Below are positions 739 through 26,913 of a stretch of DNA of 35,415 nucleotides, piece by piece; within the stretch, counting starts at the first letter, position 1, and every line of letters starts with the position of its first letter. Origin of the DNA: an uncultured Clostridia bacterium (GTDB lineage: Bacteria > Bacillota > Clostridia > Christensenellales > Borkfalkiaceae). The position numbers were made by a program, and so were the translations under genes. Under the pieces are notes generated by a model, which was not told the origin of the DNA, ran no database searches, and was given only the letters and a program-made list of their open reading frames with translations. Location: positions 1 to 35,415 of the forward strand of contig CALVWQ010000019.1 in assembly GCA_944367535.1 (NCBI GenBank), read 5' to 3'.

Positions 739-1938
739 TTATTGTTTAATCAATTTGTAATCTTCTGCAAGTTTTCTAAAATAAGGCAATGAATCGACAA
801 TGGTCTTTTTATCGACGCAGTAAGCGATTCTGACGTATCCCTTTACGCCGAAATCGTCGCAAGGGACAATCAAAAGTTCGTATTTTTTGGCTTTTTCATA
901 GAAACTTACGGCATCGACGTCGGGCGATTTGACAAAGAGATAAAACGCGCCGTCGGGCTTGACGCATTCAAAACCGAAATCCGTCAGATTATTATAAAGT
1001 AAATCCCTGTTTTCCTTGTAAGGAGAAATTTTCACTTTAACGTCTATGCAACGCGCCACAACCTGCTGAAAAAGAGCGGGCGCACAAACATATCCCAAAG
1101 ACCGTCCCGCGCCGCAGACGGCAAGATATATCTCGGCGCTTTCATGCATTTTCGGATTGACAGCTATATATCCTATACGTTCGCCCGGAAGCGAAAGCGA
1201 TTTTGAATAAGAGTAGCAAACAATCGAACTGTCGTAATAATTCATTATATACGGAACAAATATCCCGTTATATACGAGTTCTCTGTACGGCTCGTCGCTT
1301 ATTAGATATATCTCATGCCCGAATTCCCGCGATTTGCGTTTTAAAATTTCACAAACGTTCCTTACTGTTTCTTCCGTATACACGACGCCGCTCGGATTAT
1401 TGGGAGAATTGATTATAACGGCTTTGGTCTTTTCGGTTATGCGATTCGTAAAATCGGCAAGGTCAATCTGAAAAGTTTTATTCTCAGGCTCTGAAACGAC
1501 AATTTTCCCGCCCGCATTTGCGATAAAAACGCTGTATTCGGTAAAAAAAGGAGCAAATACGATACATTCATCGCCTTGGTCAAACAAAGCTTTCAAAACT
1601 ATGCTCAAAGATGCCGCCGCACCGCATGTCATATATATATAATCGGCAGAAATATCGACGCCGAATCTATTTTTAATGTTGTCCGCGACGGCCTTCCTAA
1701 CTGCGGCATCGCCCTGCGCGGAAGTATAACCGTGCAAAAGCGTGGGTTTTAATTCCTTCGTAAGAGAGAGTATCGCTTCGGTAACTTCCTCGGGAGGTTC
1801 GACGCTCGGATTGCCGAGACTGAAATCGAAAACCTTATCGTATCCGATTGCTGCTTTACGCGCTTTGCTGTATTCAAATATTTCCCTTATGACGGAACGT
1901 TTTGAACCGAGCGTATATGCGCTTTTATTATATGACAT
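739..1938 (-). CDS. PLP-dependent class I/II aminotransferase
   Basis: This 399-residue fold-type I aminotransferase exchanges an amino group between an amino acid and a 2-oxoacid in the cytoplasm. Visible landmarks are NSPNNPSG (residues 177-184, with the PLP-contacting asparagine), SDEPY (214-218, aspartate and tyrosine to PLP), the Schiff-base lysine K246 in SYSKSLSLPGERIGY, and the substrate-carboxylate arginine R370 near the C-terminus. It is the last gene of the minus-strand operon. Its ribosome binding site GGAGG lies inside the final codons of the amidohydrolase gene and only two bases separate stop and start, so translation is probably coupled. Beside iorAB and two aryl-CoA ligases it most likely interconverts aromatic amino acids and arylpyruvates. 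Specificity cannot be read from the sequence; alanine or branched-chain substrates remain possible. Confidence 0.93.
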   Translation of the reverse strand: MSYNKSAYTLGSKRSVIREIFEYSKARKAAIGYDKVFDFSLGNPSVEPPEEVTEAILSLTKELKPTLLHGYTSAQGDAAVRKAVADNIKNRFGVDISADYIYMTCGAAASLSIVLKALFDQGDECIVFAPFFTEYSVFIANAGGKIVVSEPENKTFQIDLADFTNRITEKTKAVIINSPNNPSGVVYTEETVRNVCEILKRKSREFGHEIYLISDEPYRELVYNGIFVPYIMNYYDSSIVCYSYSKSLSLPGERIGYIAVNPKMHESAEIYLAVCGAGRSLGYVCAPALFQQVVARCIDVKVKISPYKENRDLLYNNLTDFGFECVKPDGAFYLFVKSPDVDAVSFYEKAKKYELLIVPCDDFGVKGYVRIAYCVDKKTIVDSLPYFRKLAEDYKLIKQ

Positions 1939-1940
1939 TT

Positions 1941-2756
1941 TCAGCCTCCGATTTTCAATAACTTCAAGGCATTGCCGAAAAATATTTTATCTTCGGCAGA
2001 CTTGCCCAAATTATACGATTTAAGTATATCACTATGCGATGCGGTATCCTGCCACGGACAATCGCTTGCGAACAAAACTCTGTCGTCACCGTGTTTGTCG
2101 AGTATCTTTTTAAATAATTTTTCGTCTATTTCATGCAGAGTAAACGCAGTATCGAGATAAACATTGCAACCTGCAATTAAATCCAGCACATTCTGCCACT
2201 GTTTATGTCCGCCATAATGTGCCAGAACTAACTTTTCATGGCCTATTTTATCAATAACTTTTTTAGAAAGTTCCGGCGGACATTTTACGGGTTCTCCGAT
2301 ATATCCGTCATCTACGCCCGCATGCGTCACAACTATCATGTCATAATCTTTTGCGGCCGAAATAATTTTGATATATCCCTCATCGTCAATAAAAGTTTCC
2401 TGATAATCGGGATGAATCTTTACGCCGAGAAATCCGCTGTCTTTTAAAAACTTCATCTTATTTTTTATGTCTTCGCAAGCGGGGTGAATTCCCCCGAAAG
2501 AAATAAGTTTTCTTTTAGAGTCCTTATATTTTTCGTTTATCTCAATTGCGAATCTGTTCACACTGTCAAACTGCGACGGTTTTGTCAATACGGGCAGAGT
2601 TACGCAAATATCGGCATCCGCTCTTTCCATAGCATTTAAAAGACCTTCGGCTGTGCCATCGGTACAGGGATGACCATCAGATTTCATGGCAAGAAAATCT
2701 ATGGTTCTCTGCGCTATTTTTTCCGGAAATATGTGAGTATGAAAGTCAATAAGCAT
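1941..2756 (-). CDS. Metal-dependent amidohydrolase-superfamily protein (Amidohydro_2 type)
   Basis: A 271-residue TIM-barrel protein whose metal ligands are all in place: H6 and H8 (DFHTH), H115 (GVKIHP), H145 (THAG), H180 (LAHYGG) and D232 (ASDCPW). The C-terminal GNALKLL is typical of the Amidohydro_2 branch. Members are hydrolases of amide or ester bonds, or non-oxidative decarboxylases of aromatic acids. There is no signal peptide, so it acts in the cytoplasm. The ATG follows AAGGA at a six-base distance. It sits between the ACT protein and the aminotransferase in the aryl acid operon, so its substrate is probably an aromatic acid or a conjugate of one. That is inference from context; the exact reaction is unknown. 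Confidence 0.85.
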   Translation of the reverse strand: MLIDFHTHIFPEKIAQRTIDFLAMKSDGHPCTDGTAEGLLNAMERADADICVTLPVLTKPSQFDSVNRFAIEINEKYKDSKRKLISFGGIHPACEDIKNKMKFLKDSGFLGVKIHPDYQETFIDDEGYIKIISAAKDYDMIVVTHAGVDDGYIGEPVKCPPELSKKVIDKIGHEKLVLAHYGGHKQWQNVLDLIAGCNVYLDTAFTLHEIDEKLFKKILDKHGDDRVLFASDCPWQDTASHSDILKSYNLGKSAEDKIFFGNALKLLKIGG

Positions 2757-2779
2757 ATTCGTTCCTTATATTTTAATGT

Positions 2780-3211
2780 TCAGTTAAGCTTTGATATATC
2801 TTCTGCGGACATTGTCTTTACGCCCTCTGAAACCAGAATTTTATCCGCTTTTTTGAGGTCGGAAGGTTTCAGCACGACCGATGCCGTTTCGCCGTCGATG
2901 GAAAGCCCGTACATATATTCTACGTTTATCTGTTTTTCACTTAGAATTTTTAAAAGTTCCTGCAAACTTCCCGCTTTATGCTCTATTTTTATTACAAGCA
3001 CGTCCGTAAGCATAGTAGAAAAACCTTCCGCGGATAATTTTTCGCGCCCCGAAGCGGGGTCGTTTACTATAAGGCGTAAAAGCCCGTATTCGGTGGTGTC
3101 GGCAAGGCTCAAAGAAATGATATTGATTTTATTTCTTTTTAATACATCAAGCACTTCACCGAGCCTGCCCTGTCTGTTTTCAATAAATACCGATAATTGT
3201 TTAGCGTTCAT
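2780..3211 (-). CDS. Tandem ACT-domain protein
   Basis: A 143-residue protein made of two ACT domains and little else. The first covers about residues 5-68 (KQLSVFIENRQGRLGEVLDVL, then the beta strand NINIISLSL). The second covers about 71-135 (VLVIKIEHKAGSLQELLKIL, then INVEYMYGL). ACT domains bind small ligands, usually amino acids, at domain interfaces. Stand-alone tandem-ACT proteins are commonly found next to phenylacetate-CoA ligase and IOR genes in anaerobes. Lying 14 bases after ligase 1, with a strong GAGGGG binding site, it probably senses an aromatic or branched-chain amino acid for this pathway. No DNA-binding or catalytic domain is present, so it must act by binding a partner protein. 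Confidence 0.85.
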   Translation of the reverse strand: MNAKQLSVFIENRQGRLGEVLDVLKRNKINIISLSLADTTEYGLLRLIVNDPASGREKLSAEGFSTMLTDVLVIKIEHKAGSLQELLKILSEKQINVEYMYGLSIDGETASVVLKPSDLKKADKILVSEGVKTMSAEDISKLN

Positions 3212-3225
3212 AATAATCCCCTCTT

Positions 3226-4524
3226 TTAATATAATTTACGTTTATCAATGACGTGCACCGCTTTGCCTTCGCTACGCGTAAGCGTCTGCGGTTCGACTAT
3301 TCTTATTTTTGCATTGAGTCCGAGAGCTTGATTTATTGTGTGAGATATTTTCTGTGTCAGCGCTTCAAGCCCTTTGATTTCGTCGGAGAAATACTTTTCG
3401 TCGATTTCTACCTGTATTTCAAGGGTGTCGAGATTATTTACCCTGTCAACAATAATCATATAGTGCGGCGTTACTTCTTTGATATCAACAAGAGCCGCCT
3501 CGACCTGACTCGGGAAAACGTTGACGCCGCGGATTATAAGCATATCGTCTACACGGCCTTTGAATTTGCTTATTCTCGCACTCGTTCTACCGCATTCACA
3601 CGTGTCGTAATTTATACTGGTAAGGTCTTTGGTTCTGTACCTTATGAGCGGCAGACCTTCCTTTGTGATTGTAGTAAATACGAGTTCGCCCGTCTCGCCC
3701 GCCTTGACGGGTTTTAACGTCGAAGTGTCGAGAATTTCGGGATAGAAATGGTCTTCGCAGACATGAAGTCCCTTGTGATAAATACAATCGCATGCGACGC
3801 CCGGTCCCATAACCTCCGACAATCCGTAGATATCGTGTGCGTTTATATGAAGCCGACCTTCGATTTCAGAGCGCATTTTATCCGTCCACGGTTCGGCGCC
3901 GCAGATAGCCGCGCGAAGTTTCAGGTCTTTTATGAGATTTTCCGCTTCTAGAAGTTCTGAAATATGGAGAAGATAAGACGGTGTGCATGCGATTGCGGTA
4001 ACGCCGAAATCAACCATCATTGTTGTTAATTTCTTGGAATTTCCCGTACTCATGGGCACGACCATGGCGCCTATTTTTTCCGCACCGCCGTGTGCACCGA
4101 GTCCGCCCGTAAATAGTCCGTATCCATATCCTACCTGTATTATATCTTCCTTTGTTACTCCCGCCATGGTAAGGCACCTGGCAACACATTCGGACCATAT
4201 ATCTAAGTCGCGCCGGGTATAACCGACGACCGTAGCCTTTCCCGTAGTACCGCTAGAAGCGTGTATTCTGACAATCTGAGATTTTGGGGTGGCAAACAAG
4301 CCGAAGGGATAATTATCTCTTAAATCATCCTTAGTCGTAAACGGAAGTTTAGTTATATCCTCGACGCCCTTTATATCACCCGGCAAAAGTCCGAGCTGTT
4401 GCATTTTCTTACGGTAAAACTCTACGTTATGATAAACATAGTCCACCGTTTTGACGAGCCTTGCGCTTTGAAGCGCAGTCATTTCGTCTCTTGACATACA
4501 CTCCTTTGTTTCATTCCAAATCAT
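3226..4524 (-). CDS. paaK: Phenylacetate-CoA ligase 1 (AMP-forming, PaaK-like)
   Basis: A 432-residue adenylate-forming enzyme that activates an arylacetate with ATP and CoA to arylacetyl-CoA, AMP and pyrophosphate. Visible motifs are the P-loop-like SSGTTGKAT (residues 90-98), YGLSEVMGPG, RYRTKD, the hinge region GRVDDMLIIRGVNVFPSQ, and the catalytic C-terminal lysine K421 in SEGKA. The size fits the short PaaK family. The ATG at 4524 is preferred because GGTGAG precedes it and it matches the start of ligase 2 (MIW). A TTG 24 bases upstream would overlap iorB and has no binding site. One base separates the iorB stop from this ATG. The exact substrate (phenyl-, 4-hydroxyphenyl- or indoleacetate) is not readable. 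Confidence 0.92.
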   Translation of the reverse strand: MIWNETKECMSRDEMTALQSARLVKTVDYVYHNVEFYRKKMQQLGLLPGDIKGVEDITKLPFTTKDDLRDNYPFGLFATPKSQIVRIHASSGTTGKATVVGYTRRDLDIWSECVARCLTMAGVTKEDIIQVGYGYGLFTGGLGAHGGAEKIGAMVVPMSTGNSKKLTTMMVDFGVTAIACTPSYLLHISELLEAENLIKDLKLRAAICGAEPWTDKMRSEIEGRLHINAHDIYGLSEVMGPGVACDCIYHKGLHVCEDHFYPEILDTSTLKPVKAGETGELVFTTITKEGLPLIRYRTKDLTSINYDTCECGRTSARISKFKGRVDDMLIIRGVNVFPSQVEAALVDIKEVTPHYMIIVDRVNNLDTLEIQVEIDEKYFSDEIKGLEALTQKISHTINQALGLNAKIRIVEPQTLTRSEGKAVHVIDKRKLY

Positions 4525-4525
4525 G

Positions 4526-5095
4526 TTACTCACCGTATCCTTTTTCAAATGCTTTTAAATTTATATCTGTTGTTTTCGTGGGAACTGTAACTTTAATTAC
4601 ATCCTCCCATTCAGATTTACCAAATCCTATAAATTTTGCCGCGGCACCTAATACAACTGAATTAAGAACTTTACTGTTACCGAGATCTTTTGCGGCGGAA
4701 AGTCCGTCTATTGTGTGAATCCTATGCTTTTCACCGAGTTTTTTTATGATGTTTTCCGGATAACTTTCCGCACCTATTACGACCGTCATCGGATCAATTT
4801 TGCAATCATTAACAATTATAATACCGTCTTTTTTAAGGTAATGAGCATATCGCATAGCTTCAAGTATTTCAAAAGATATAAGAATGTCGGCGTCGCCCGC
4901 CTCGACGACGGGTTCGGCAACGTTTTCACCGAAACGTATAAAAGTAACGACGCTTCCGCCTCGCTGTGCCATTCCATGTACTTCCGAAAGTTTAACGTCA
5001 TACCCCGCGTTTAAAGCGGTATTGCCAATAATTCTGCTGGTTAAAAGCGTGCCCTGACCGCCCACACCGACAACCATTATGTTTGCACTTTTCAT
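4526..5095 (-). CDS. iorB: Indolepyruvate:ferredoxin oxidoreductase, beta subunit
   Basis: A 189-residue gamma-type domain of the 2-oxoacid:ferredoxin oxidoreductase family. GVGGQGTLLTSRIIG lies at residues 10-24, followed by the family's typical EVHGMAQRGGSV. With IorA it oxidatively decarboxylates arylpyruvates to arylacetyl-CoA using CoA and ferredoxin; the reaction is reversible with reduced ferredoxin. It starts one base after iorA ends, with AAAGGTGG as the binding site, and is followed after one base by ligase 1, so production of the two subunits and the ligase is tightly coupled. Confidence 0.94.
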   Translation of the reverse strand: MKSANIMVVGVGGQGTLLTSRIIGNTALNAGYDVKLSEVHGMAQRGGSVVTFIRFGENVAEPVVEAGDADILISFEILEAMRYAHYLKKDGIIIVNDCKIDPMTVVIGAESYPENIIKKLGEKHRIHTIDGLSAAKDLGNSKVLNSVVLGAAAKFIGFGKSEWEDVIKVTVPTKTTDINLKAFEKGYGE

Positions 5096-5096
5096 A

Positions 5097-6836
5097 TTAT
5101 CTTTCCACCTTTGATATCGCTCCGAATTTACACTTAGACATGCAAAGCCCGCAGCCGTTGCACATCGTATCGTTTATAGTAACCGTCCCGTCGACGTTGC
5201 GTGTTATCGCGGGACATCCGATTTTTAGACACATTCCGCATTTTTTGCATTTTTCGGCATCCGACACGCATTTATAAGGAAATTTCTGTCCTTTTAGCAG
5301 CGCACACGGCGCTTTTGCGATTATAACCGAAAGAACCGAACCGTTTACGCAATCCTTTATCGTCTTTTCAAGCGTATCGACGTCGAAAGCGTTTACGGTG
5401 CAAACGTTCGGGACGCCTATCGCTCGGCACAGAGTTTCCAGATTTACGGCATAAGTTTCTTCGCCTTTCAGCGTTTTGCCCGTTGCTGCATGGTCTTGAT
5501 GCCCGGTCATTCCAGTCGTGCGATTATCAAGGATTATAACAGTACCGCTTGCCTTATTATAGACCATGTTAATAAGTGAATTTACTCCCGTATGCAAAAA
5601 TGTCGAATCACCGATAACAGCCACCCAGTCTTTTATGAAATCTTTGCCTTTCGCCTTTTCCATTCCGTGGAGTACGGATATGCTTGCTCCCATACAGACC
5701 GTCGTATCTATTACGCTTAAAGGCGCAACGGCACCGAGCGTATAACAACCTATATCTCCAGCGGCATGAATTTTCAGTTTATTAAGAACAGAAAACACGC
5801 TTCTGTGAGGACAGCCCGAACAAAGTATGGGCGGACGCGCGGGGACTTTGTCGGCGGAGAATATTGCGTCGTCTTTGCCATATATTGCTTTTTTAAGCAA
5901 ATTCGCCGAATATTCGCCCTGTTTTGTGAAAAGTTCCTTGCCTTTTACTTCGATGCCCCATGATTTTATCTGTTCCTCAATCACGGGTTCGAGTTCTTCG
6001 ATCACATAAACGCATTCGACTTCTTTTACAAAGTCTTTAATGAGTTTTCTCGGAAGCGGATTTATTATACCGAGTTTTAAAACGCTTGCGTCGGGACAAG
6101 CCTCTTTTACATATTGATATGGTATTCCCGAAGTAATAAAACCAAGCTTGCGGTCTTTTATTTCTACCTTATTGACAGGAAATTCCGAAGCATCGCGCTG
6201 TAAAACGTTTTCGCGTTCTTCGACGGCAACATGCCTTCCTATAGCCGAACCCGGCATCATCACGTATTTTTTTATATTCCGCTCGTAAACCTTATCTGTA
6301 ACTTCCTCGCGTTCCTCGATATTCACAACGCTCTGTGAATGAGAAAGTTTCGTGGTTGTGCGAAGTATTACGGGCGTGTCATATTTTTCCGATAGTTCGT
6401 AAGCGAATTTTATAAACACTCTCGCCTCTTCGCTATCCGACGGTTCAAGAAGAGGAATATGAGCGGAGCGCGCAATCATTCTCGTATCCTGTTCATTTTG
6501 GGAACTTGCCAATCCAGGGTCGTCGGCAACAACGATAACCGAACCTCCGTTGACGCCCGTATATGCAAAAGTATAAAGAGGGTCGCTTGCGACGTTGAGT
6601 CCTACGTGTTTCATGCAGGCAAGGCTTCTTACTCCCGAAAACGAAGCGCCTATCGCAACTTCGAGAGCAACTTTTTCGTTCGGTGCCCATTCTGTATAAA
6701 CTTCGTCGTATTTTGCGAGAAATTCGCTTATTTCGGTACTCGGAGTGCCCGGATATGCACTCGAAACTTTAACTCCCGCCTCGTATGCGCCCCTTGCAAT
6801 CGCCTGATTTCCAAGCATTATTTTCTTTTTGCTCAT
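5097..6836 (-). CDS. iorA: Indolepyruvate:ferredoxin oxidoreductase, alpha subunit
   Basis: A 579-residue thiamine diphosphate enzyme subunit. The N-terminal pyrimidine-binding domain begins NQAIARGAYEAG with SAYPGTPSTE (residues 27-35). GCPHR is at 341-345, and the thiamine diphosphate motif runs from GDS (409-411) to N438 in ILDNRTTGMTG. The C-terminus holds two [4Fe-4S] ferredoxin-like motifs: C530, C533, C536, C541 and C559, C562, C565, C569. All are intact. It converts arylpyruvate plus CoA to arylacetyl-CoA and carbon dioxide with ferredoxin as electron acceptor, reversibly. The ATG overlaps the ligase 2 stop by four bases (ATGA) and has AGGAG nine bases upstream. NNPSG-type aminotransferase, ligase and IOR together point to aromatic substrates. 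Confidence 0.96.
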   Translation of the reverse strand: MSKKKIMLGNQAIARGAYEAGVKVSSAYPGTPSTEISEFLAKYDEVYTEWAPNEKVALEVAIGASFSGVRSLACMKHVGLNVASDPLYTFAYTGVNGGSVIVVADDPGLASSQNEQDTRMIARSAHIPLLEPSDSEEARVFIKFAYELSEKYDTPVILRTTTKLSHSQSVVNIEEREEVTDKVYERNIKKYVMMPGSAIGRHVAVEERENVLQRDASEFPVNKVEIKDRKLGFITSGIPYQYVKEACPDASVLKLGIINPLPRKLIKDFVKEVECVYVIEELEPVIEEQIKSWGIEVKGKELFTKQGEYSANLLKKAIYGKDDAIFSADKVPARPPILCSGCPHRSVFSVLNKLKIHAAGDIGCYTLGAVAPLSVIDTTVCMGASISVLHGMEKAKGKDFIKDWVAVIGDSTFLHTGVNSLINMVYNKASGTVIILDNRTTGMTGHQDHAATGKTLKGEETYAVNLETLCRAIGVPNVCTVNAFDVDTLEKTIKDCVNGSVLSVIIAKAPCALLKGQKFPYKCVSDAEKCKKCGMCLKIGCPAITRNVDGTVTINDTMCNGCGLCMSKCKFGAISKVER

Positions 6837-8137
6837 TCTTTGTTACTCCTAAAATCTTTTACGCGCTTTGCTTTACCCTCGAATCTCTGCAGTGTATTCG
6901 GCGACTCCAACTGCACTTTGGCGTCGAGTCCTAAAACGACGCGCAGTTTGTTTTTTACCCTCGAAGTCAAATCTGAAAGTTCGGCAAACGAATCGGTAGA
7001 CCGAACAAGTTCGACGCGAACGGTAAGTTTGTCGGAATATCCTTCTCTTTCCACAACTATTTCATAATGCGGACCGAGCTCCGAAAAGCCGAGCACCACT
7101 TCTTCAATCTGACTCGGGAAGACATTTACACCTCTTATTTTAAGCATATCGTCAGATCTTCCCGACAGATTCTCCATACGGCAGAAATTCCTCCCGCAAG
7201 CGCAAGGCTCGTAGAAAAGCCGCGTTATATCCTTTGTCCTGTATCTTATGAGCGGCAACGCTTCTTTCTTTATACAAGTTATCACCAATTCGCCCTTTTC
7301 ACCCTCGGGAAGAACTTCGCCCGTTGCGGGATTTATTATTTCGGGAATGAAATAATCCTCGTTAATGTGCATGCCGCAAAGTTTTTCACATTCTCCCGAA
7401 ACCCCGGGGCCCATGAGTTCGCTCATTCCGTAGTTGGACGTCACCAAAACATCGTCGCCCCACACCTTATGCATTTCCGCGCGCATGGATTCGGTCAAAA
7501 GCTCGCTGCCTAAAAGTCCGATTTTGATTTTGAGGTCTTTTTTCGGGTCGACACCCGTTTCCCTCGCAACTTCCGCAAGCCTTAAAGCATAGGAAGGCGT
7601 AGCAACAAGAAGAGTGGAACCGAAATCTTTCATATACATAATCTGCTTCTCGGAATTACCGGTCGATGACGGTATAACGGTAGCGCCGATTTTTTCAAGT
7701 CCGTAATGAAGCCCGAGCGCGCCCGTAAACATTCCGTATCCGAAACAAATCTGGGCTATATCCTTACTACTCGCGCCTCCCATACATGCGATACGCGATA
7801 CACATTCAGTCCAATTCGCTATATCGTTAGCAGTATAACCCACTACCGTGGGTTTACCAGTAGTTCCGCTGGAAGCATGTATTCTGTTCAGCTTATCGCT
7901 TTCAACGGCAAAAAGCCCGTAGGGATAGTTGTCCCTCATGTCCTGTTTTGTGATAAAAGGGAGCTTTGCGAGGTCTTTCAGTGTCTTTATATGTTCGGGT
8001 TTTACGCCTAAAGAATCCATTTTAGCCTTATACGGTTTTACCTTTTCATATACTCGCGCAACTGTTTCTTTAAGTCTTGCAAGCTGCATTTCCTCAATTT
8101 CTTTTCTGGAAAGCGTCTCCTCTTTTGACCAAATCAT
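6833..8137 (-). CDS. paaK: Phenylacetate-CoA ligase 2 (AMP-forming, PaaK-like)
   Basis: A second short PaaK-type ligase, 434 residues, clearly homologous to ligase 1 but with many substitutions. It keeps SSGTTGKPT near residue 90, YGMSELMGPG, RYRTKD, GRSDDMLKIRGVNVFPSQ and the catalytic lysine K422 in FEGKA. It should activate an aryl acid with ATP and CoA. The ATG at 8137 is chosen because GAGGTG stands six bases upstream; the longer frame uses a GTG that lies inside this binding site. It is 39 bases downstream of the symporter and overlaps iorA by four bases. Two ligases flanking one oxidoreductase suggest two acid substrates. Which acid each one takes is unknown. Confidence 0.92.
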   Translation of the reverse strand: MIWSKEETLSRKEIEEMQLARLKETVARVYEKVKPYKAKMDSLGVKPEHIKTLKDLAKLPFITKQDMRDNYPYGLFAVESDKLNRIHASSGTTGKPTVVGYTANDIANWTECVSRIACMGGASSKDIAQICFGYGMFTGALGLHYGLEKIGATVIPSSTGNSEKQIMYMKDFGSTLLVATPSYALRLAEVARETGVDPKKDLKIKIGLLGSELLTESMRAEMHKVWGDDVLVTSNYGMSELMGPGVSGECEKLCGMHINEDYFIPEIINPATGEVLPEGEKGELVITCIKKEALPLIRYRTKDITRLFYEPCACGRNFCRMENLSGRSDDMLKIRGVNVFPSQIEEVVLGFSELGPHYEIVVEREGYSDKLTVRVELVRSTDSFAELSDLTSRVKNKLRVVLGLDAKVQLESPNTLQRFEGKAKRVKDFRSNKE

Positions 8138-8176
8138 TATATACACCTCATGTCTTTGTATAACGTTCCGCGAAGA

Positions 8177-9721
8177 TTATTTTATTTCATTTTCTATAAT
8201 TTTATCGAAAGCTTCGCTTATAATGTCGTCAGACGGTTTTCGGGTAAACGCGCTTACGACAATGGTAACCAAAATAGAATAAATCATACAGATTACGCCT
8301 ATTGTTGGCGAAAGCCCTATCCCGCTTTTCAGAGCCTGTCCGAAAGAACAGTCCCAACCGTTGAAATCATAGCCTAAAACAAATATGAGCGCGACCGTTA
8401 TAAATAGCGTGCCGATTATCGATGCCCATACGGCGGATTTTGTAACTTTTTTAGAAATGAGACCGATAACGAAAGGTCCTATGAAACAACCCGCAAGCGT
8501 TCCCCAACTTATGCCCATCAAATAGGCTATTGCCGCTATACCATAAACTTCGTTAAGAATTGCAAGCGCAAGAGAAACAGCGACAAATATAAGGCAGAAT
8601 ATTCGCATATAATTGTTTACGCGCCTGTCAGAAGCCTCTTTTCTGATATTGCCTTTATAAATATCGATAGCGACAACGGAAGCGCTCGTAAGACATACCG
8701 ACGATAAAGTGGACATGCTCGCAGATAAAATAAGAATCACTATGACTCCCATAAGCCCCGCAGGTATAACAAGATTAAGCATTTCGGGAATCACGTTATC
8801 GGAAGAAATTCCCTGAACTTCTGGGAAAAGTCCGCTTAAACCGCCAACAAAATATGCACCGAATCCTATTATAAGCGCGAATAACGTGCTGACTATCATA
8901 CCCTGGGATATAGCCTTTCTGTCCCTTATCGCATAATATTTATGTACTGTCTGCGGCAAACCGTATACCCCGACGGAAGTAAGAAGTATAAGCGCGAGAA
9001 GCGATACGGTACTGCCGTAAAAACCCGTCTTTGTGCTGTTAAAAGTAAACCATGTGAGATTCGGGTCGTTTACAAGTTCCGTCAGATTCCAACTGACCTG
9101 GTCGCTGTTAAGGAAGAAAAACACCATTAAAATAACGCCGATAAGCATTATTATTCCCTGAATAAAGTCAGACAGCGCGGTCGCGAAATATCCGCCGAAA
9201 AACAGATAAAGCGCCGTGAGTACGGCAAGACAAAGCATTATAATCCAAGTATGATTTATTCCGAAAACTATTTTAAAAAGACTTCCGAGACCATTATAAA
9301 CCGAAGCGGAATACGGAATAAGAAATACGAAGATTATTATTGCCGAAACAAGTTTTAACGCCCTGCTTCCGTATCTTTTTTCAAAAAATTCGGGCATGGT
9401 TTTAGCCCCGAGTCTTTGCGTCATGTTTTTTGTGCGTTTAGCCAATATTTTCCATGCAACGAGCGAACCGAGAACGGCATTAAAAATTCCTATCCATACC
9501 GCCGCGAGTCCGTATTCGGCGCCGAACTTACCGGCATAGCCTATAAAGATAACAGCTGAAAAATAAGTTGTACCGTATGCAAAAGCACTCATCCAACCAT
9601 TAAGCCCGTCTTTTCCGGCAAACAAAAAGTCATCAACCGACTTTGACCGGTTACGCGTATATACGGCAACGGCAATCATGCCTATGACGTAAAGCACGAG
9701 AACTATATAATCGAAAACCAT
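8177..9721 (-). CDS. Sodium:solute symporter (SSS family)
   Basis: A 514-residue membrane protein with about 13 hydrophobic segments and no other domains. It begins FDYIVLVLYVIGMIAVAVY, followed by the family hallmark DDFLFAGKDGLNGWMSAFAYGTTYFSA at about residues 30-56 (quoted across two motifs). SSS transporters import amino acids, sugars or carboxylates with sodium ions. The ATG has GGGAG six bases upstream. It is the first gene of the aryl acid operon, so its cargo is probably an aromatic acid such as phenylacetate or an aromatic amino acid. This is inferred from position only; the sequence does not give the substrate. Confidence 0.92.
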   Translation of the reverse strand: MVFDYIVLVLYVIGMIAVAVYTRNRSKSVDDFLFAGKDGLNGWMSAFAYGTTYFSAVIFIGYAGKFGAEYGLAAVWIGIFNAVLGSLVAWKILAKRTKNMTQRLGAKTMPEFFEKRYGSRALKLVSAIIIFVFLIPYSASVYNGLGSLFKIVFGINHTWIIMLCLAVLTALYLFFGGYFATALSDFIQGIIMLIGVILMVFFFLNSDQVSWNLTELVNDPNLTWFTFNSTKTGFYGSTVSLLALILLTSVGVYGLPQTVHKYYAIRDRKAISQGMIVSTLFALIIGFGAYFVGGLSGLFPEVQGISSDNVIPEMLNLVIPAGLMGVIVILILSASMSTLSSVCLTSASVVAIDIYKGNIRKEASDRRVNNYMRIFCLIFVAVSLALAILNEVYGIAAIAYLMGISWGTLAGCFIGPFVIGLISKKVTKSAVWASIIGTLFITVALIFVLGYDFNGWDCSFGQALKSGIGLSPTIGVICMIYSILVTIVVSAFTRKPSDDIISEAFDKIIENEIK

Positions 9722-9775
9722 AAACTTCTCCCGAAATTCGTCTCAAGTAAAAAATCCCAAATTAAATAAACAAAT

Positions 9776-9800
9776 TTATCAATTTTATCAATTAATTATA
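9776..9800 (-). promoter_or_regulatory. Candidate -10 box and tandem operator ahead of the symporter operon
   Basis: The minus strand reads TATAAT at 9800-9795, about 67 bases from the likely transcript start to the symporter ATG. The -35 side is weak. Immediately downstream, at about +1, is a perfect tandem 9-bp repeat: TTATCAATT on the plus strand at 9776-9784 and again at 9785-9793. A repressor bound here would block initiation. No rho-independent terminator is visible after purB, so read-through from purB is also possible. Confidence 0.35.
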
Positions 9801-9811
9801 AGTCAAACAAA

Positions 9812-11242
9812 TCAGATATTGACGCTGCCCTTGCGGCCGAGAAGTGCTGAGTGCTCTTTAAGAACAGGGTCTACTTCTTCCCCGACAAATTCCTCGACCT
9901 GCGCAGGAGCGCGTCCTATATAGAGCGAAGCATTCAATACGTCATCTAACTTTCCGTGAACGGCTCTGAATACGTCGTCTCCCTTTATCAGCTCTATAAG
10001 ATTGTTATCTTTTCCGTACATTTTGACGTTTTCCGCCGCCTTCATGGACAAAACTCTTATTTCCTCATGAAGTTCCTGTCTGTTTCCACCCGCTTTAACA
10101 CATTCCATTATGATATTTTCCGTAGCCATGAACGGAAGTTCTGCCGCGACGTGTTTTTCTATCACCTTGCGGTATACGACGAGATTTTCGGTTATATTCA
10201 TATAAAGTTTCAAGAGCCCGTCCACAGCCAAAAAACTTTGCGCTATTACGATTCGCTTATTTGCGGAATCATCCAAAGTCCTTTCAAACCACTGCGTAGA
10301 CGCGGTCATGGCGGCATTTGCGGGCATGCTCATTACAAACCTCGCGAGAGAACATAGTCTTTCGCTTCTCATGGGATTGCGTTTATATGCCATTGCCGAA
10401 GAGCCAATCTGTGTCTTTTCAAATGGTTCCTCTATTTCTTTCATGTGCTGCAACAGCCTAATATCGTTGGCAAATCTGTAACCGCTCTGCGCTATTTCGG
10501 ACAAAACCGACAACACACTGTAATCGAATTTTCTCGGATAAGTCTGACCCGTAACTTTATATACTTTCTTATACCCCATTTTTCCGACTACGCGGCGTTC
10601 GAGTTCCTTTACCTTTTCACCGTCATTATCGAACAAATCCATAAAACTCGCCTGCGTACCGGTTGTACCCTTCACGCCGCGAAGTTTTACCTTGTTTTTC
10701 AAGTCTTTTAACGAACGATAATCCATAAGGAGGTCTTCGAGCCACAGACACGCACGTTTTCCGACGGTTGTAAGTTGCGCGGGTTGCAGGTGAGTAAATC
10801 CGAGCGTAGGTACATCCTTATAAGCAAGGGCAAACTTTTTAAGATTATCAATGACGTTTACAAGTTTAGCGAGAACTATGTCGAGCGCATTATCTATTAC
10901 AATGATTTCGGCATTATCGGTAACAAAACAACTAGTCGCTCCGAGATGAATTATTCCCGCCGCTTTTTTAGCCTGTTCGCCATAAGCCTTGACATGCGCC
11001 ATAACATCATGCCTTACCGAACGCTCGTATTTATCCGCAACGTCGAAATTTATATCGTTTTCGTATTTTTTCAGATCTATTATCTGCTCATCGGTGATAT
11101 TAAGCCCGAGTTCCTTTTCGCTCTCGGCAAGAGCAATCCAAAGCTTTCTCCACAGACCGTACTTTTTATTGTCCGAAAAATTTACCGACATCTCCTCTGA
11201 CGCATATCTGGTAATAAGCGGATTATTATAATATTCGTGCAT
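9812..11242 (-). CDS. purB: Adenylosuccinate lyase, long human-like type
   Basis: A 476-residue member of the fumarase/aspartase superfamily. It splits adenylosuccinate to AMP and fumarate, and SAICAR to AICAR and fumarate, in purine synthesis. The signature loop GSSAMAYKRNPMRSE begins at residue 280 with the catalytic serine; the usual proline after SSAM is alanine. The following STQWFERTLDDSANKR and ELPFMATENIIM closely recall human ADSL rather than the shorter Bacillus PurB. The start at 11242 is preferred because GGAG lies six bases upstream; the ATG at 11254 overlaps that binding site and has none of its own. No purine genes are adjacent. Confidence 0.95.
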   Translation of the reverse strand: MHEYYNNPLITRYASEEMSVNFSDNKKYGLWRKLWIALAESEKELGLNITDEQIIDLKKYENDINFDVADKYERSVRHDVMAHVKAYGEQAKKAAGIIHLGATSCFVTDNAEIIVIDNALDIVLAKLVNVIDNLKKFALAYKDVPTLGFTHLQPAQLTTVGKRACLWLEDLLMDYRSLKDLKNKVKLRGVKGTTGTQASFMDLFDNDGEKVKELERRVVGKMGYKKVYKVTGQTYPRKFDYSVLSVLSEIAQSGYRFANDIRLLQHMKEIEEPFEKTQIGSSAMAYKRNPMRSERLCSLARFVMSMPANAAMTASTQWFERTLDDSANKRIVIAQSFLAVDGLLKLYMNITENLVVYRKVIEKHVAAELPFMATENIIMECVKAGGNRQELHEEIRVLSMKAAENVKMYGKDNNLIELIKGDDVFRAVHGKLDDVLNASLYIGRAPAQVEEFVGEEVDPVLKEHSALLGRKGSVNI

Positions 11243-11284
11243 CGCCTTCTCCATTTTTTTATTTATATTTTAACATACTTTTTC

Positions 11285-11313
11285 AGTATATCATTTTTTG
11301 ACAGTTTTGTAAA
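11285..11313 (-). promoter_or_regulatory. purB promoter
   Basis: On the minus strand TTTACA (11313-11308) and TATACT (11290-11285) are separated by exactly 17 bases. The predicted transcript start is about 35 bases ahead of the purB ATG, too short a leader for a riboswitch. Confidence 0.6.
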
Positions 11314-11387
11314 TATAAAAATCCCCCATTTTACTCTTAATTTACATTTTTTTGTCCGATTACCCCGTCCATTCGATATATTATCAC

Positions 11388-11416
11388 TTGACTATGTTTT
11401 TGATTTATTATATAAT
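11388..11416 (+). promoter_or_regulatory. leuS promoter
   Basis: TTGACT (11388-11393), a 17-base spacer and a perfect TATAAT (11411-11416) form a strong sigma-A-type promoter pointing at leuS. Transcription would start near 11423, giving a leader of only about 50 bases. That leaves no room for a T-box. Confidence 0.8.
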
Positions 11417-11473
11417 ATACCATAAAGCGTAAAAGCAAATTTTTACTTGTTTTACGGAGGCTTAAAACCATAT

Positions 11474-13915
11474 ATGGACATGAAAAAGATTGAGAAGAAG
11501 TGGCAGGCGATTTGGGAAAAAGAAAAAATCGCCAATTTTAATCCAAAAAACATCGATAAGAAATATTATTGTCTTGAAATGTTTTCCTACCCTTCCGCTG
11601 CAAAACTGCACCTGGGACACTGGTACAACTACGGTCCCACCGACAGTTTTGTGCGCTACAAAAAAATGAAAGGTTACGAAACTTTTCAGCCCATGGGGTT
11701 CGACGCTTTCGGGCTTCCCGCCGAAAATTATGCAATCAAAACCGGAATTCATCCGAAAGACTCCACCGAAAAAAATATCGCCAACATGGAGCAGACGCTC
11801 AGAGAAATGGGCGCGCTTTTCGATTGGAATGCCGAAGTCAAAACATGCAACGAGGATTATTACAAATGGACACAGTGGCTTTTTCTTAAACTTTACGAAA
11901 AAGGACTCGCTTACAGAAAAGAAGCGCCCGTCAACTGGTGCCCCAGCTGTAAAACCGTTCTCGCGAACGAACAGGTCGTGAACGGCGAATGCGAACGCTG
12001 CGGCGCCACGGTCGTAAAAAAAGACCTCACGCAATGGTTTTTCAAAATAACCGATTACGCCGAGGAGCTTCTGCAAGGGTTAAAGGACCTTGACTGGCCC
12101 GAAAAGACAAAACTCATGCAGAAAAACTGGATTGGCAAATCGATAGGCGCGGAAATTGAATTTACTTGCGAAAGCGGCGATAAGTTCAAAGTATTTACAA
12201 CGCGCGCGGATACCCTGTTTGTTGTTTCGTTTATTGTATTTGCGCCCGAACATCCCCTGGTCAAAAAACTCACTTCCGACGGGCAGCGCGAAGAGGTGGA
12301 AAAATATCTTTACGAAGCTTCCAAAGCAAACGAAATTGAACGTCTTTCCACCACTCGCGAAAAGACAGGCGTATATATAGGTCATAACGCCATAAACCCC
12401 ATAAACGGGAAAGCCGTACCGATTTATGTCGCGGATTATGTACTCTATTCTTACGGAACGGGTGCCGTAATGGGCGTTCCTTCGGGCGACGAACGAGACT
12501 TTGAATTCGCCACGAAATACAATCTCCCCATCGTCAGAGTAACAAAGGGTATAAACTGCAACGACGATCTCCCCTTCCACGAAGAAGGCATTATAGTCAA
12601 CAGCAAAGGTTTCGACGGCATGACTACGCAGGAAGGCAGAAAAGCAATCGTCAACAAACTGATTCAGGAAGGCAAGGCGGAATATAAAATAAATTACAGG
12701 CTACGCGACTGGCTGGTTTCGCGTCAGCGTTATTGGGGCGCACCAATTCCCGTCGTATATTGCGAAAAGTGCGGCATAGTGCCTGTACCTTATTCGGAAC
12801 TGCCGGTCAGACTTCCTTACGACGTAGAATTTACGCCGGACGGAGAATCTCCTCTCGCAAAACACAAAGGGTTTATGGAAACCAAATGTCCAGTTTGCGG
12901 AGGTCCCGCTCACAGAGACCCCGATACACTAGATACGTTCGTGTGTTCGAGTTGGTACTATCTGAGATATCCCGACGCTCACAACGCAAAAGAGCCGTTT
13001 AATCCCGATATCATAAATAAAATGCTCCCCGTCGACAAATACGTCGGCGGCGCAGAACATGCCTGCATGCACCTTTTATACGCGAGATTTATTACTAAAG
13101 CGCTTCGCGATATGGGATATCTTAATTTTGACGAACCTTTCAAATCGCTTGTGCATCAAGGCGTTATACTCGGCCCCGACGGGCTCAGGATGAGTAAATC
13201 CAAGGGAAACATTGTTGCCCCCGACCCCTATGTGGAAGAATACGGCGCGGACGTTTTAAGGCTCTATCTTATGTTCGGTTTCTCATACACCGAGGGCGGA
13301 CCGTGGAACGACGACGGAATCAAGGCGATTACGAAGTTTCTCGACAGAATAGAAAGACTTGCCGCAAAAATCAATTCTCTGCCCGTTGACAAAAACGCCG
13401 ACAAGCACGCTCCCAACGGAAAAGAAGAAAAAGCGCTCTTATATGCCGTCAACTATGCGATTAAATGCGTGGACAGAGACATGGATTCCTTCTCGTTCAA
13501 TACCGCCGTCGCAAGGCTTATGGAATTATTGAACGCAATATATAAATACGACGGAGCTGAAACGGAAAAAAATATTCCGCTGTTTAAAGACTGTTTCAAA
13601 AAACTCGTTCTGCTTCTTGCACCCTGCGCGCCGCATTTTGCGGAGGAAATTTGGGAAGGACTCGGGAATAAAACTTCTGTTTTCTATTCCAAATATCCCG
13701 AATGCGATGAATCCGCTCTCACGCTCGACGAAGTCGAAGTCGCGGTGCAAATAAACAGTAAGATGCGTACAAAACTCGTCGTGCCGAGCGAAATAGACGA
13801 ACAGGGAATCAGGGAAATTATAGAAAAAGACGAAAAACTTGCTGCCGAAATTAACGGCAGAGAAATCAAAAAATTGATAATCGTGCCTAAACGGCTGATT
13901 AACATCATATTATAA
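11474..13915 (+). CDS. leuS: Leucyl-tRNA synthetase
   Basis: An 813-residue class Ia synthetase that charges tRNA-Leu in the cytoplasm. The HIGH motif is HLGH at residues 46-49 and the KMSKS motif is RMSKS at 572-576. Between them is the CP1 editing domain, with TTRADTLF and [16 protein letters not shown]. Zinc-type cysteine pairs are seen in CPSC...CERC and CEKC...CPVC. The C-terminal domain ends with the LeuS-typical [21 protein letters not shown]. The longest frame would begin with TTG at 11447, ahead of the GGAGG at 11456-11460. The ATG at 11474, 13 bases after that site, gives the usual N-terminus (KIEKKWQ). ATG 11480 is an alternative. It is followed after about 30 bases by the ATPase gene. 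Confidence 0.97.
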
Positions 13916-13945
13916 TTTACAAACTGAGAAACCGAGAGTGTGATT

Positions 13946-16369
13946 ATGAAAAAAAGAACCGAATCAGACGTTACGCAAATCGAAAGATTTTACCCATCCC
14001 CCAGCACCGGCCTTACCGCCGAACAAGTTGCAAAACGAACTGCGAGCGCGTTAACCAATCATGTTGAACAAAAATACTCAAAATCTTATTTGAGCATTTT
14101 TATCGGAAATATCTGCACAGTATTTAATCTTTTGGGACTTATAGTATTCATTGCGCTGTTAAGTGTCGGCGCAGGTCTTTTCGATTTTGTTTTCGTCATC
14201 ATTTACATAGCTAATTTCAGTATAGGTATTATTCAGGAAATCAGAGCGAAACACTGCATCGAAAAACTTTCGCTTCTAGCAAACAAAAACTTTAAGGTCG
14301 TGAGAGATGGTGAAAACAAAGAAATTGCAATAAGCGAAATAGTCCTTGACGACGTAATCGTTCTCGGTATCGGCGACCAGATTCCTGCCGACTGCAAAAT
14401 ACTGTCGGGCAACGTCGAAGTAAACGAATCGCTGCTCACGGGAGAATCCGTGCCCGTAAAAAAACAAGAAGGAGACGAACTTTTCGCAGCAAGTTTCATC
14501 GTAGCCGGAAATTGTTATGCGCAGGCTGTCAAAGTCGGCAAAGACAATTATGCCGCACAGCTCTCCGCAAAGGCAAAAAAATACAGAAAACCGCGTTCGG
14601 AGCTGATGCAATCTTTAAGAATTTTTATCAAAACCGTCGCGCTCGTCATTGTCCCGATGGCTACCGCGTATATGATTAAATCGGCAGTGATTTTAGATGT
14701 TTCCGTTCCCGAATCCATAAGACGCACATCGACTGTGGTTATAGGAATGATTCCTTCTGGAATGTTTCTTCTTACAAGCGTCGCGCTTGCCGTGGGAATA
14801 ATAAAACTCGCGAGACACAAAACGCTCGTTCAGGACCTCTACTCTCTCGAAATGCTCGCACGCGTGGATACAATCTGTTTCGATAAGACAGGCACCATAA
14901 CCGACGGGAATATGAGCGTTACGGACGTTGTTCCACTGCAAGACGGTTTCGATATCAAAAAAATTGTCTCATCGGTTGTCGGAACGCTTAAAGACACAAA
15001 TCAGACCGCTTACGCGCTTCGCAATTATTTCGGAGAAACAGCAGAGTTAAATGCAACTGCCGCCCTCCCCTTTAATTCTTCACGTAAATTGTCAGCCGTA
15101 ACGTTTGGAAAAGACGGAACATACGCAATAGGCGCCCCCGAATTTATCCTCGCTCACGAACAGTTTAAAAATATCCAAAAAGATATAGAGTCTTATTCCG
15201 CAAAGGGTTTAAGAGTAATACTTCTCGCACATAGCAAATCTGCAATCGAGAACGATAATGTCAAAAAAGATTTTTCGCCTGTGGCCTTAATTTTGATTGC
15301 CGACAATATTCGTCCCGAAGCATTCGATACGGTAAAATGGTTTAAGGATAACGACGTCGCAATAAAGGTAATTTCCGGCGACAACCCTATTACCGTCGCA
15401 GAGGTTTCTAAACGCGTCGGAATCGAAAACGCGGATAAGTTTATAAGTCTCGAAGGATTGAGCGACGAAGAAGTTGCGGCGGCCGCAAACGAATATACCG
15501 TATTCGGAAGAGTTACGCCCGAACAGAAAGCCATACTCGTAAAGGCTATGAAACAGGAAGGTCATACAACCGCCATGACGGGCGACGGCGTAAACGATAT
15601 AATCGCATTGAAAGAGGCAGATTGCGCCATTACGGTGGCAAGCGGCAGCGAGGCGGCGAGAAACGTTGCCCACCTCGTACTGATGGACAATAACTTTAAC
15701 TCCATGCCCAAAGTCGTGCACGAAGGCAGACGCGTTATTAACAATGTTCAAGGTTCCGCCTCATTGTATCTGATGAAAACATTTTTCACAATGATGCTTT
15801 CATTTATTATACTTTGGATTCCGAAAGTAGCCATTTATCCGTTTACCTTAAAACAAATGAATATCCTTGAAATCGCTGTAATCGGTATCCCCTCTTTCTT
15901 CCTTTCTCTTCAACCTAACGACGCGCGCATTAAAGGCACGTTTATTAAGAATGTCCTCTTTAAATCCGTCCCGAGTGCACTGCTTATGGTAATAAGCGTA
16001 GGTCTAGTGGGATTGATAAAAATTTTCGACACAACCGCTTCCGACGAAACTTATTCGACCATGGGAATACTTGCCCTCACTCTCGCGGGAGCCGTAAATT
16101 TATTTATGATATGCCGGCCGTTTAACAACTATCGCAGAATACTCTTTTCAATCGTAGCCGTCATAATTGCGGCAGTCATTCTGGTGGTGATTTTCTTAGG
16201 ACTTAATTTCCTCGGGCTTGTCCGCTTGGCGCTCGAAAATAACGGGTACAGACATATACTTTTCGTTTTGGCAATATTCCTTCTAGATTTCCCGCTGTCG
16301 CTGCTTTTGCAAAAAATATATTCGATGCTTAGAACAAAAAACATCAAAACGGAAAAAGATTGTGTCTGA
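13946..16369 (+). CDS. Cation-transporting P-type ATPase
   Basis: An 807-residue membrane pump of the HAD-type P-ATPases. It carries the actuator motif TGES (165-168), the phosphorylated aspartate D313 in DKTGT, and the hinge GDGVND (546-551). About ten hydrophobic segments are present: pairs near residues 50-100, around 225-290, and six after 610. The membrane-4 ion site reads IPSG (269-272) instead of the PEGL of classical calcium and sodium pumps. There is no N-terminal heavy-metal domain and no CPC motif, so copper and zinc type is unlikely. It may belong to the CtpE-like group, for which calcium uptake has been proposed, but the ion is uncertain. The ATG at 13946 is favoured over the upstream GTG because GAGAG precedes it. 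It is probably co-transcribed with leuS. Confidence 0.9.
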   Translation: MKKRTESDVTQIERFYPSPSTGLTAEQVAKRTASALTNHVEQKYSKSYLSIFIGNICTVFNLLGLIVFIALLSVGAGLFDFVFVIIYIANFSIGIIQEIRAKHCIEKLSLLANKNFKVVRDGENKEIAISEIVLDDVIVLGIGDQIPADCKILSGNVEVNESLLTGESVPVKKQEGDELFAASFIVAGNCYAQAVKVGKDNYAAQLSAKAKKYRKPRSELMQSLRIFIKTVALVIVPMATAYMIKSAVILDVSVPESIRRTSTVVIGMIPSGMFLLTSVALAVGIIKLARHKTLVQDLYSLEMLARVDTICFDKTGTITDGNMSVTDVVPLQDGFDIKKIVSSVVGTLKDTNQTAYALRNYFGETAELNATAALPFNSSRKLSAVTFGKDGTYAIGAPEFILAHEQFKNIQKDIESYSAKGLRVILLAHSKSAIENDNVKKDFSPVALILIADNIRPEAFDTVKWFKDNDVAIKVISGDNPITVAEVSKRVGIENADKFISLEGLSDEEVAAAANEYTVFGRVTPEQKAILVKAMKQEGHTTAMTGDGVNDIIALKEADCAITVASGSEAARNVAHLVLMDNNFNSMPKVVHEGRRVINNVQGSASLYLMKTFFTMMLSFIILWIPKVAIYPFTLKQMNILEIAVIGIPSFFLSLQPNDARIKGTFIKNVLFKSVPSALLMVISVGLVGLIKIFDTTASDETYSTMGILALTLAGAVNLFMICRPFNNYRRILFSIVAVIIAAVILVVIFLGLNFLGLVRLALENNGYRHILFVLAIFLLDFPLSLLLQKIYSMLRTKNIKTEKDCV

Positions 16370-18661: not shown

Positions 18662-18683
18662 CGTCAGGCTCTTTATATTATTT

Positions 18684-21107: not shown

Positions 21108-21152
21108 CTTATGCTCCGTTATCAATCTATAAATTTTGCTCTTTTCGTTAAA

Positions 21153-22670: not shown

Positions 22671-22680
22671 AATTTTTACC

Positions 22681-24989: not shown

Positions 24990-25014
24990 ATAGTTAAATC
25001 TCCTGTAATGATTT

Positions 25015-26907: not shown

Positions 26908-26913
26908 AAGGAA

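Follow-up and report, generated by a model that had tools for sequence, protein, structure and literature searches.

The window in this study is a 35,415-nucleotide stretch of DNA from an uncultured Clostridia bacterium of the family Borkfalkiaceae, and its main subject is a group of eight genes. All eight are encoded on the minus strand between positions 9721 and 739, and their reading frames are nearly contiguous. The initial annotation regarded them as an operon which may import aryl acids and turn them into aromatic amino acids, and the Pfam and NCBIfam scans together with the coordinates confirmed the eight genes, the single strand and the claimed families. The first gene encodes an SSF-family sodium:solute symporter that is PutP/PanF-like (8177..9721; Pfam SSF, 184.8 bits). 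Every NCBIfam match of the symporter, the best being TIGR02121, falls under its cut-off, and it is proposed as a putative arylacetate importer. PaaK1 (6833..8146; AMP-binding 52.5 bits, AMP-binding_C_2 96.6 bits) and PaaK2 (3226..4548; 43.4 and 113.9 bits) are AMP-forming aryl-CoA ligases, with both domains above the cut-off in each. They share 47.7% identity, and the nearest solved structure of both is 2y27, a phenylacetate-CoA ligase. Their scores against the PaaK equivalog TIGR02155 (501 bits for PaaK1 and 547.5 bits for PaaK2) do not reach the cut-off of 646.3, and the two ligases are PaaK-like only. Between them lie the alpha and beta subunits of an indolepyruvate:ferredoxin oxidoreductase (IOR), IorA (5097..6836; TIGR03336, 700.6 bits, cut-off 650.9) and IorB (4526..5095; NF005325, 259.5 bits, cut-off 230). 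IorA has POR_N (61.4 bits), TPP_enzyme_C (78.4 bits) and a C-terminal Fer4 (25.5 bits), all above the cut-offs. Both subunits pass the curated cut-offs, and the TPP domains and Fe-S motifs are present; arylpyruvates are the putative substrates. The last three genes encode a tandem ACT-domain protein (2780..3211; Pfam ACT_8, 92.3 bits), a putative amino-acid sensor; a metal enzyme of the Amidohydrolase_2/ACMSD fold (1941..2756; Pfam Amidohydro_2, 69.4 bits); and a PLP aminotransferase of the PRK06836 family (739..1938; NF005305, 562.5 bits, cut-off 376), whose nearest solved structure, 3ele, is annotated only as ‘Amino Transferase’.

The symporter and PaaK1 are separated by 30–39 bases, PaaK1 and IorA overlap by 4 bases, and a single base separates IorA from IorB and, with ATG 4524 as the start, IorB from PaaK2. 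The tight spacing described from the second ligase onward was found as gaps of 14 bases (PaaK2-ACT), 23 bases (ACT-amidohydrolase) and 2 bases (amidohydrolase-aminotransferase). The true ligase starts are probably ATG 8137 for PaaK1 and ATG 4524 for PaaK2 rather than the listed TTG/GTG, because the relatives begin there. The importer had been said to head the operon. It is indeed the first of the eight, but purB lies on the same strand 90 bases upstream, and the transcript may therefore begin further upstream than the symporter.

The gene block recurs in gut Clostridia beyond chance expectation. Relatives were searched with IorA alone as the query and one genome per species. The best 80 of 573 confirmed relatives were kept, and therefore the 80 loci represent the closest relatives (IorA 70–85% identical). 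Many of them are, as titled, metagenome-assembled genomes (MAGs) of ruminant-gut Clostridia, accompanied by Lachnospiraceae. IorB was found in all 80 loci, the ACT protein in 66, the amidohydrolase in 65, PaaK2 in 61, PaaK1 in 59, the aminotransferase in 45 and the symporter in 43, with many loci cut by contig ends. Among the 53 loci uncut within 1.5 kb of the cluster, the counts were 53 for IorB, 46 each for the ACT protein and the amidohydrolase, 40 for PaaK1, 37 for PaaK2, 33 for the symporter and 31 for the aminotransferase. Loci that lack PaaK2 or the symporter are therefore real variants. Co-occurrence of the eight genes in relatives, which had been put forward as a check, was observed as the complete string in 23 of the 80 loci and in one more with an additional SSF match; order and strand are mostly kept. 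The place of PaaK1, upstream of IorA, is taken by a FadD-type ligase of 544 aa in several Lachnospiraceae (for example, L067 8352-9986). Lachnoclostridium phytofermentans KNHs2131 (L085), a cultured carrier, possesses IorAB together with PaaK-like ligases, and no match for the amidohydrolase was seen in it.

A second sample was composed of 101 genomes from one family, 50 with IorA and 51 without it, and 15 of the 50 IorA loci are also within the 80. The commonest core in the IorA-positive genomes was PaaK1-IorA-IorB-PaaK2-ACT. At least one AMP-forming ligase was present in 49 of the 50 clusters, the ACT protein in 42, the amidohydrolase in 25, a same-strand symporter in 14 and the aminotransferase in 12. 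In four genomes the amidohydrolase is ahead of IorA and a FadD-type ligase comes after it, and thus the link of the amidohydrolase survives rearrangement. The suggestion that the amidohydrolase belongs to one unit with the other genes holds for the close relatives. An acyl-kinase motif was found in none of 130 stretches (115 distinct), in a scan made on frames over 250 aa only and with no positive control.

The AlphaFold model of the amidohydrolase has a pLDDT of 97.2. Residues H6, H8, K113, H115, H145, H180 and D232 are invariant in the alignments, and this set fits an amidohydrolase metal site. The nearest folds among the 50 matches listed are mostly ACMSD-group aromatic decarboxylases (TM ~0.65–0.73, 13–19% identity). 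The ACMSD/gamma-resorcylate decarboxylase family (2hbv, 2dvt, 3s4t) shares the fold, but its members have 305–380 residues (267 in one match) against 271 in the operon enzyme, and function is not transferable. A decarboxylase name was rejected, the similarity of fold being distant only. The profile A1 was built from 44 of the 74 sequences at hand for this family of proteins, and with a threshold of E 1e-40 it detected a member in 44 of the 101 family genomes, 43 of them with IorA. The operon-type amidohydrolase (at least 320 bits) occurred in 26 of the 101, and all 26 have IorA. The remaining 18 genomes, of which one (G062) is without IorA, have lower-scoring copies only, away from the IOR cluster. 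The link between amidohydrolase and IorA is therefore strong when counted over genomes but weaker when counted over loci.

A second-grade (lower-scoring) paralogue of the amidohydrolase lies in a parallel VOR operon of the window genome (L143, contig C22:3000-22000, at 6650-14710), together with a LeuA-like protein with LeuA_dimer, a TIM-barrel/AMP-ligase fusion, IlvE, a P-loop NTPase and VOR alpha. The families were scanned on the copy of the window genome; the beta and gamma subunits were scanned on that of one relative, where they are under the cut-offs, and BLAST was used to match the remaining loci. The LeuA-like protein has HMGL-like and LeuA_dimer matches and is under the LeuA cut-offs. 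The same block, with the NTPase not in all, was found in six relatives (L145, L146, L147, L148, L154 and L155). The aromatic and VOR operons mirror each other, since both have a ligase, an OFOR, an aminotransferase, an amino-acid-binding regulatory domain and an amidohydrolase. The VOR operon reads as a putative salvage of branched-chain acids into branched-chain amino acids. Amidohydrolase copies outside the main locus, or in G062, were inspected in sixteen regions: the VOR block was seen in 7, a contig end after the ligase in 1, a place beside proBAC in 1 and neither in 7. In four of the last seven (L144, L150, L152 and L158) the copy itself was missing from the picked frames. The proBAC case, a paralogue directly after proB-proA-proC, is from one genome, L156 (G031 contig C11) 4104-7970. 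Because the paralogues stand in VOR and proBAC operons, they are a pointer to anabolism, and their pattern is taken as the strongest new evidence for an anabolic direction. Among the 21 genomes that carry a second-grade paralogue, 19 lack IlvC, versus 41 of 80 others, a comparison confounded by genus.

The window genome assembly (1.9 Mb, 55 contigs, 94% complete, contamination 3.5%) has a single cluster that encodes DAHP synthase, TyrA, AroB, AroA, AroC, CM/PDT, an AroE/AroK fusion and AroQ. This shikimate/Phe/Tyr cluster is compact and occupies 829-8819 of L092 (contig C28). TyrA, PDT and AroE/K are under their NCBIfam cut-offs, and TyrA and PDT pass the Pfam cut-offs. A gene is present for each step to the Phe/Tyr precursors, the search having covered the steps before a dedicated Phe/Tyr aminotransferase. 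Indole-glycerol-phosphate synthase (IGPS) was not found in the window genome. TrpB2 (PRK12391) was found with 570.6 bits against a cut-off of 366, truncated by the contig start. The genome had been expected to be checked for missing synthesis genes: the chorismate and prephenate steps turned out to be present, but the Trp branch lacks IGPS.

In the family sample, chorismate synthase (AroC) was present in 98 of 101 genomes, prephenate dehydratase (PDT) in 81 and prephenate dehydrogenase (TyrA), above the cut-off, in 68. The idea that the operon replaces all aromatic synthesis was rejected on the AroC count and the Phe/Tyr genes of the window genome. IGPS was above the cut-off in 5 of the 101, which are 0 of 50 genomes with IorA versus 5 of 51 without it; a sub-cut-off match of 23.8 bits with stops in the IorA-positive genome G072 was counted as absent. 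Canonical TrpB was above the cut-off in 11 of the 101, and about 50 carry a lower-scoring TrpB-like protein. A TrpB2-like protein occurred in 42 of 50 IorA-positive versus 8 of 51 IorA-negative genomes, where TrpB2 is assigned from a score of ~143–161 bits against the TrpB model; the TrpB2 model itself was scored on the window genome copy and 26 further genomes only. Any TrpB-type protein was present in 47/50 versus 14/51 (16 with the two fragments in G011 and G087), matches of 17–35 bits to other PLP enzymes being treated as no TrpB. PDT (47/50 versus 34/51) and TyrA (45/50 versus 23/51) follow, and IlvC (25/50 versus 16/51) shows a weak trend. TrpB2 is near the operon in 5 of the 50 family regions. 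These data are read as IorA going with amino-acid-making genomes, not auxotrophs, with Trp as the sole aromatic amino acid for which no de novo route was found. Traits in this sample are confounded with genus, and a within-genus permutation was used as a check. The p values were 0.12 for any TrpB, 0.27 for PDT, 0.28 for TyrA, 0.048 for the amidohydrolase and 0.027 for HisD, and the co-occurrence signal of IorA is largely between genera. IGPS and TrpB2 were also tested in the 26 genomes, taken from the 80 loci; two of these loci (L013 and L071) sit on contigs of family-sample genomes. Nineteen are Lachnospiraceae-type carriers (18 titled Lachnospiraceae and 1 titled Eubacterium). The other 7 carriers, including the two shared ones, have IGPS in 0/7 and TrpB2 above the cut-off in 5/7.

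We regard it as fairly probable that the operon serves the reductive salvage of arylacetates, with the conversion of indoleacetate into tryptophan as the likeliest gain. The symporter would import arylacetates produced by other gut microbes, and PaaK1 and PaaK2 would convert them with ATP into arylacetyl-CoA. IorAB, operating in reverse, would join arylacetyl-CoA with CO2 and reduced ferredoxin to give arylpyruvates, which the aminotransferase would turn into amino acids. The tandem ACT protein may sense the amino acid and damp the pathway. The amidohydrolase, a metal enzyme tied to operons for amino-acid synthesis, might clear a damaged or conjugated intermediate. The main benefit would be Trp from indoleacetate, alongside a TrpB2 that might form Trp from indole and serine, since the host is without the indole-making branch but keeps Phe and Tyr synthesis. 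The previous reading of aryl acids turned into aromatic amino acids is thus retained in its direction, but its product range of Phe, Tyr or Trp was too wide, because PDT and TyrA are both in the window genome and in 45 of the 50 IorA-positive genomes. The reductive direction is the better supported one. An AMP-forming ligase is in 49 of the 50 family loci, and the scan of the 130 stretches saw no acyl-kinase motif; the earlier point that such ligases favour activation is an argument on direction and not a proof. IorA-positive genomes retain more HisD, PDT, TyrA and TrpB, with IlvC as a trend only. In addition, a branched-chain aminotransferase and a regulatory domain of the LeuA type are both encoded in the parallel VOR operon. 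A wider proposal is tentative: a two-entry Trp salvage, with indole through TrpB2 and indoleacetate through the operon, may stand in place of Trp synthesis beside a branched-chain VOR operon, both operons using an amidohydrolase subfamily that would be new as an accessory of ferredoxin-driven amino-acid synthesis.

Several observations weigh against the salvage reading. IGPS is missing in 46 of the 51 IorA-negative genomes as well, and its absence is therefore a family trait. HisD, which is not aromatic, follows the same trend as TrpB (42/50 versus 11/51); therefore, IorA may mark general prototrophy. The link between IorA and TrpB2 was not significant within genera (p 0.12). IGPS was found in 9 of the 19 Lachnospiraceae-type carriers and not in 10, and a need for Trp as a universal rule was rejected on this count. 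In favour of salvage, all of the 10 without IGPS retain a TrpB-type match, which is TrpB2 above the cut-off in 3 and a lower-scoring protein of 168–184 bits, presumably TrpB1, in 7. TrpB2 was seen in 3/10 without IGPS versus 5/9 with it, and thus it is no marker of Trp-branch loss there. The amidohydrolase is missing from 25 of the 50 family clusters. The Rfam scan at the gathering score found no family anywhere in the window, and so no T-box at its operon. On the branched-chain side, IlvC is present in the window genome and in 0 of 9 sampled genus mates (genus g1), which could be a gain, a loss in the mates or assembly contamination (3.5%); the genome is one of the two paralogue carriers possessing IlvC.

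The opposite direction is an unlikely alternative, though one with precedent. In it, aromatic amino acids are transaminated, IorAB oxidises the arylpyruvates to aryl-CoA and the ligases run in reverse or are used in recapture, with arylacetates and reduced ferredoxin as the products. IOR chemistry is reversible, and IORs are oxidative in Pyrococcus and in Bacteroides thetaiotaomicron, whose IOR adjoins an AMP-forming ligase and is cited in PMC13285125 as part of the conversion of Phe into phenylacetate, which also counts against salvage. For gut OFORs that prefer aromatic substrates, the assays were made in the oxidative direction. However, the acyl-kinase scan and the AMP-forming ligases of the family clusters argue against oxidation, as do the more prototrophic character of the IorA-positive half and the LeuA_dimer of the paralogous VOR operon. 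A further point against oxidation is that quantifiable indoleacetate came from only 5 of 206 gut isolates (PMC13290082). Rather improbable is a bidirectional buffer, in which arylacetates are recaptured in shortage, reductant or arylpyruvate is disposed of in excess and the ACT protein sets the direction. The Phe and Tyr genes retained in the operon-bearing genome and the frequency of the ACT protein in the family suit such a buffer, but an importer and ATP-consuming ligases suit one direction better. It is very improbable that the ligases have other aryl or alkyl acids (phenylpropionate or plant acids, for example) as substrates and that the link to IOR is secondary: both score under the PaaK equivalog cut-off and a FadD-type ligase takes the place of PaaK1 in some relatives, but the closest solved relatives are phenylacetate-CoA ligases and a ligase lies within nearly every IorAB cluster of the family.

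Allison and Robinson reportedly observed the conversion of indoleacetate into tryptophan in the rumen. Phenylacetate into phenylalanine by rumen bacteria (Allison 1965) is listed in PMC7356843. Reductive salvage as proposed here shares the net reaction of this rumen phenylalanine synthesis, and many carriers are ruminant-gut MAGs by title; the rumen reaction is known as physiology, and genes named for it were not encountered in the literature search. Another close known system is the aryl-acid route of Methanococcus maripaludis through IOR (Porat et al., as cited in PMC4162585 and PMC3462420), which is likewise reductive and supplements de novo synthesis as a second route. In contrast, the present system is bacterial, combines PaaK-type AMP-forming ligases, a symporter, a tandem ACT protein, an amidohydrolase and an aminotransferase in one operon, and accompanies the absence of just the Trp branch. 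As in M. maripaludis, IOR and an acyl-activating enzyme are found in the same genome. An IOR beside an AMP-forming ligase is also described for Bacteroides in PMC13285125, where the ligase was shown to be active on arylacetates and the authors suggest biosynthesis. That system is from another phylum, and the word amidohydrolase is absent from the main text of the paper. Oxidative Stickland clusters (HpdDEFGJK of C. scatologenes and Ptb/Buk-linked OFORs; PMC13285125 and PMC13290082) share the arylpyruvate OFOR and, in some, nearby aminotransferases, but they have a phosphate acyltransferase and a kinase, for ATP, where the operon has an AMP-forming ligase. In favour of salvage, PMC13285125 describes a catabolic aryl OFOR as accompanied by acyltransferase and kinase, and PMC13290082 reports multiple OFOR loci with Ptb/Buk homologues in the two producers studied. 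No description of the eight-gene block or of its amidohydrolase was found in a literature search which reached few subscription papers.

The 90 bases that separate purB from the symporter (9722..9811, minus strand) are a candidate promoter region in which no regulator was found; a promoter-like match at 9746-9717 is weak (9/12). Control by a T-box was rejected, as Rfam at the gathering score gave none in the window or in the 12 loci, out of the 80, that were scanned. These 12 included L039, L027 and L050, which have T-box-like 3' motifs upstream of the operon (2 mismatches allowed in L039 and 3 in the other two), and L032 and L082, where such motifs are located elsewhere. Two other Rfam matches were seen: an AdoCbl-II (cobalamin) riboswitch at L039 827-900, ~6 kb upstream of the operon of that locus, and STnc490 at L013 19817-19925 on the minus strand (59.5 versus a gathering score of 56), which is odd for a clostridial MAG. 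At the start of the window contig, a partial frame of an IS30-family transposase (31-681) is convergent with the aminotransferase, 57 bases past its stop. The region 16856-28332 is a glycogen cluster with an amylase-like protein, phosphorylase, glycogen synthase, branching enzyme, PGI and two ADP-glucose pyrophosphorylase-like proteins. SpoIVA is matched at 34028-35395 (586.5 bits, cut-off 459.9), and therefore the host is probably a spore former.

The operon and its VOR counterpart provide testable genes for rumen-type reactions known since the 1960s, and the clades concerned include many uncultured gut bacteria. If reductive salvage is true, both producers and consumers would set the gut levels of the host-active compounds indoleacetate and phenylacetate, and the presence of IOR genes in a metagenome would be no evidence for indoleacetate production.

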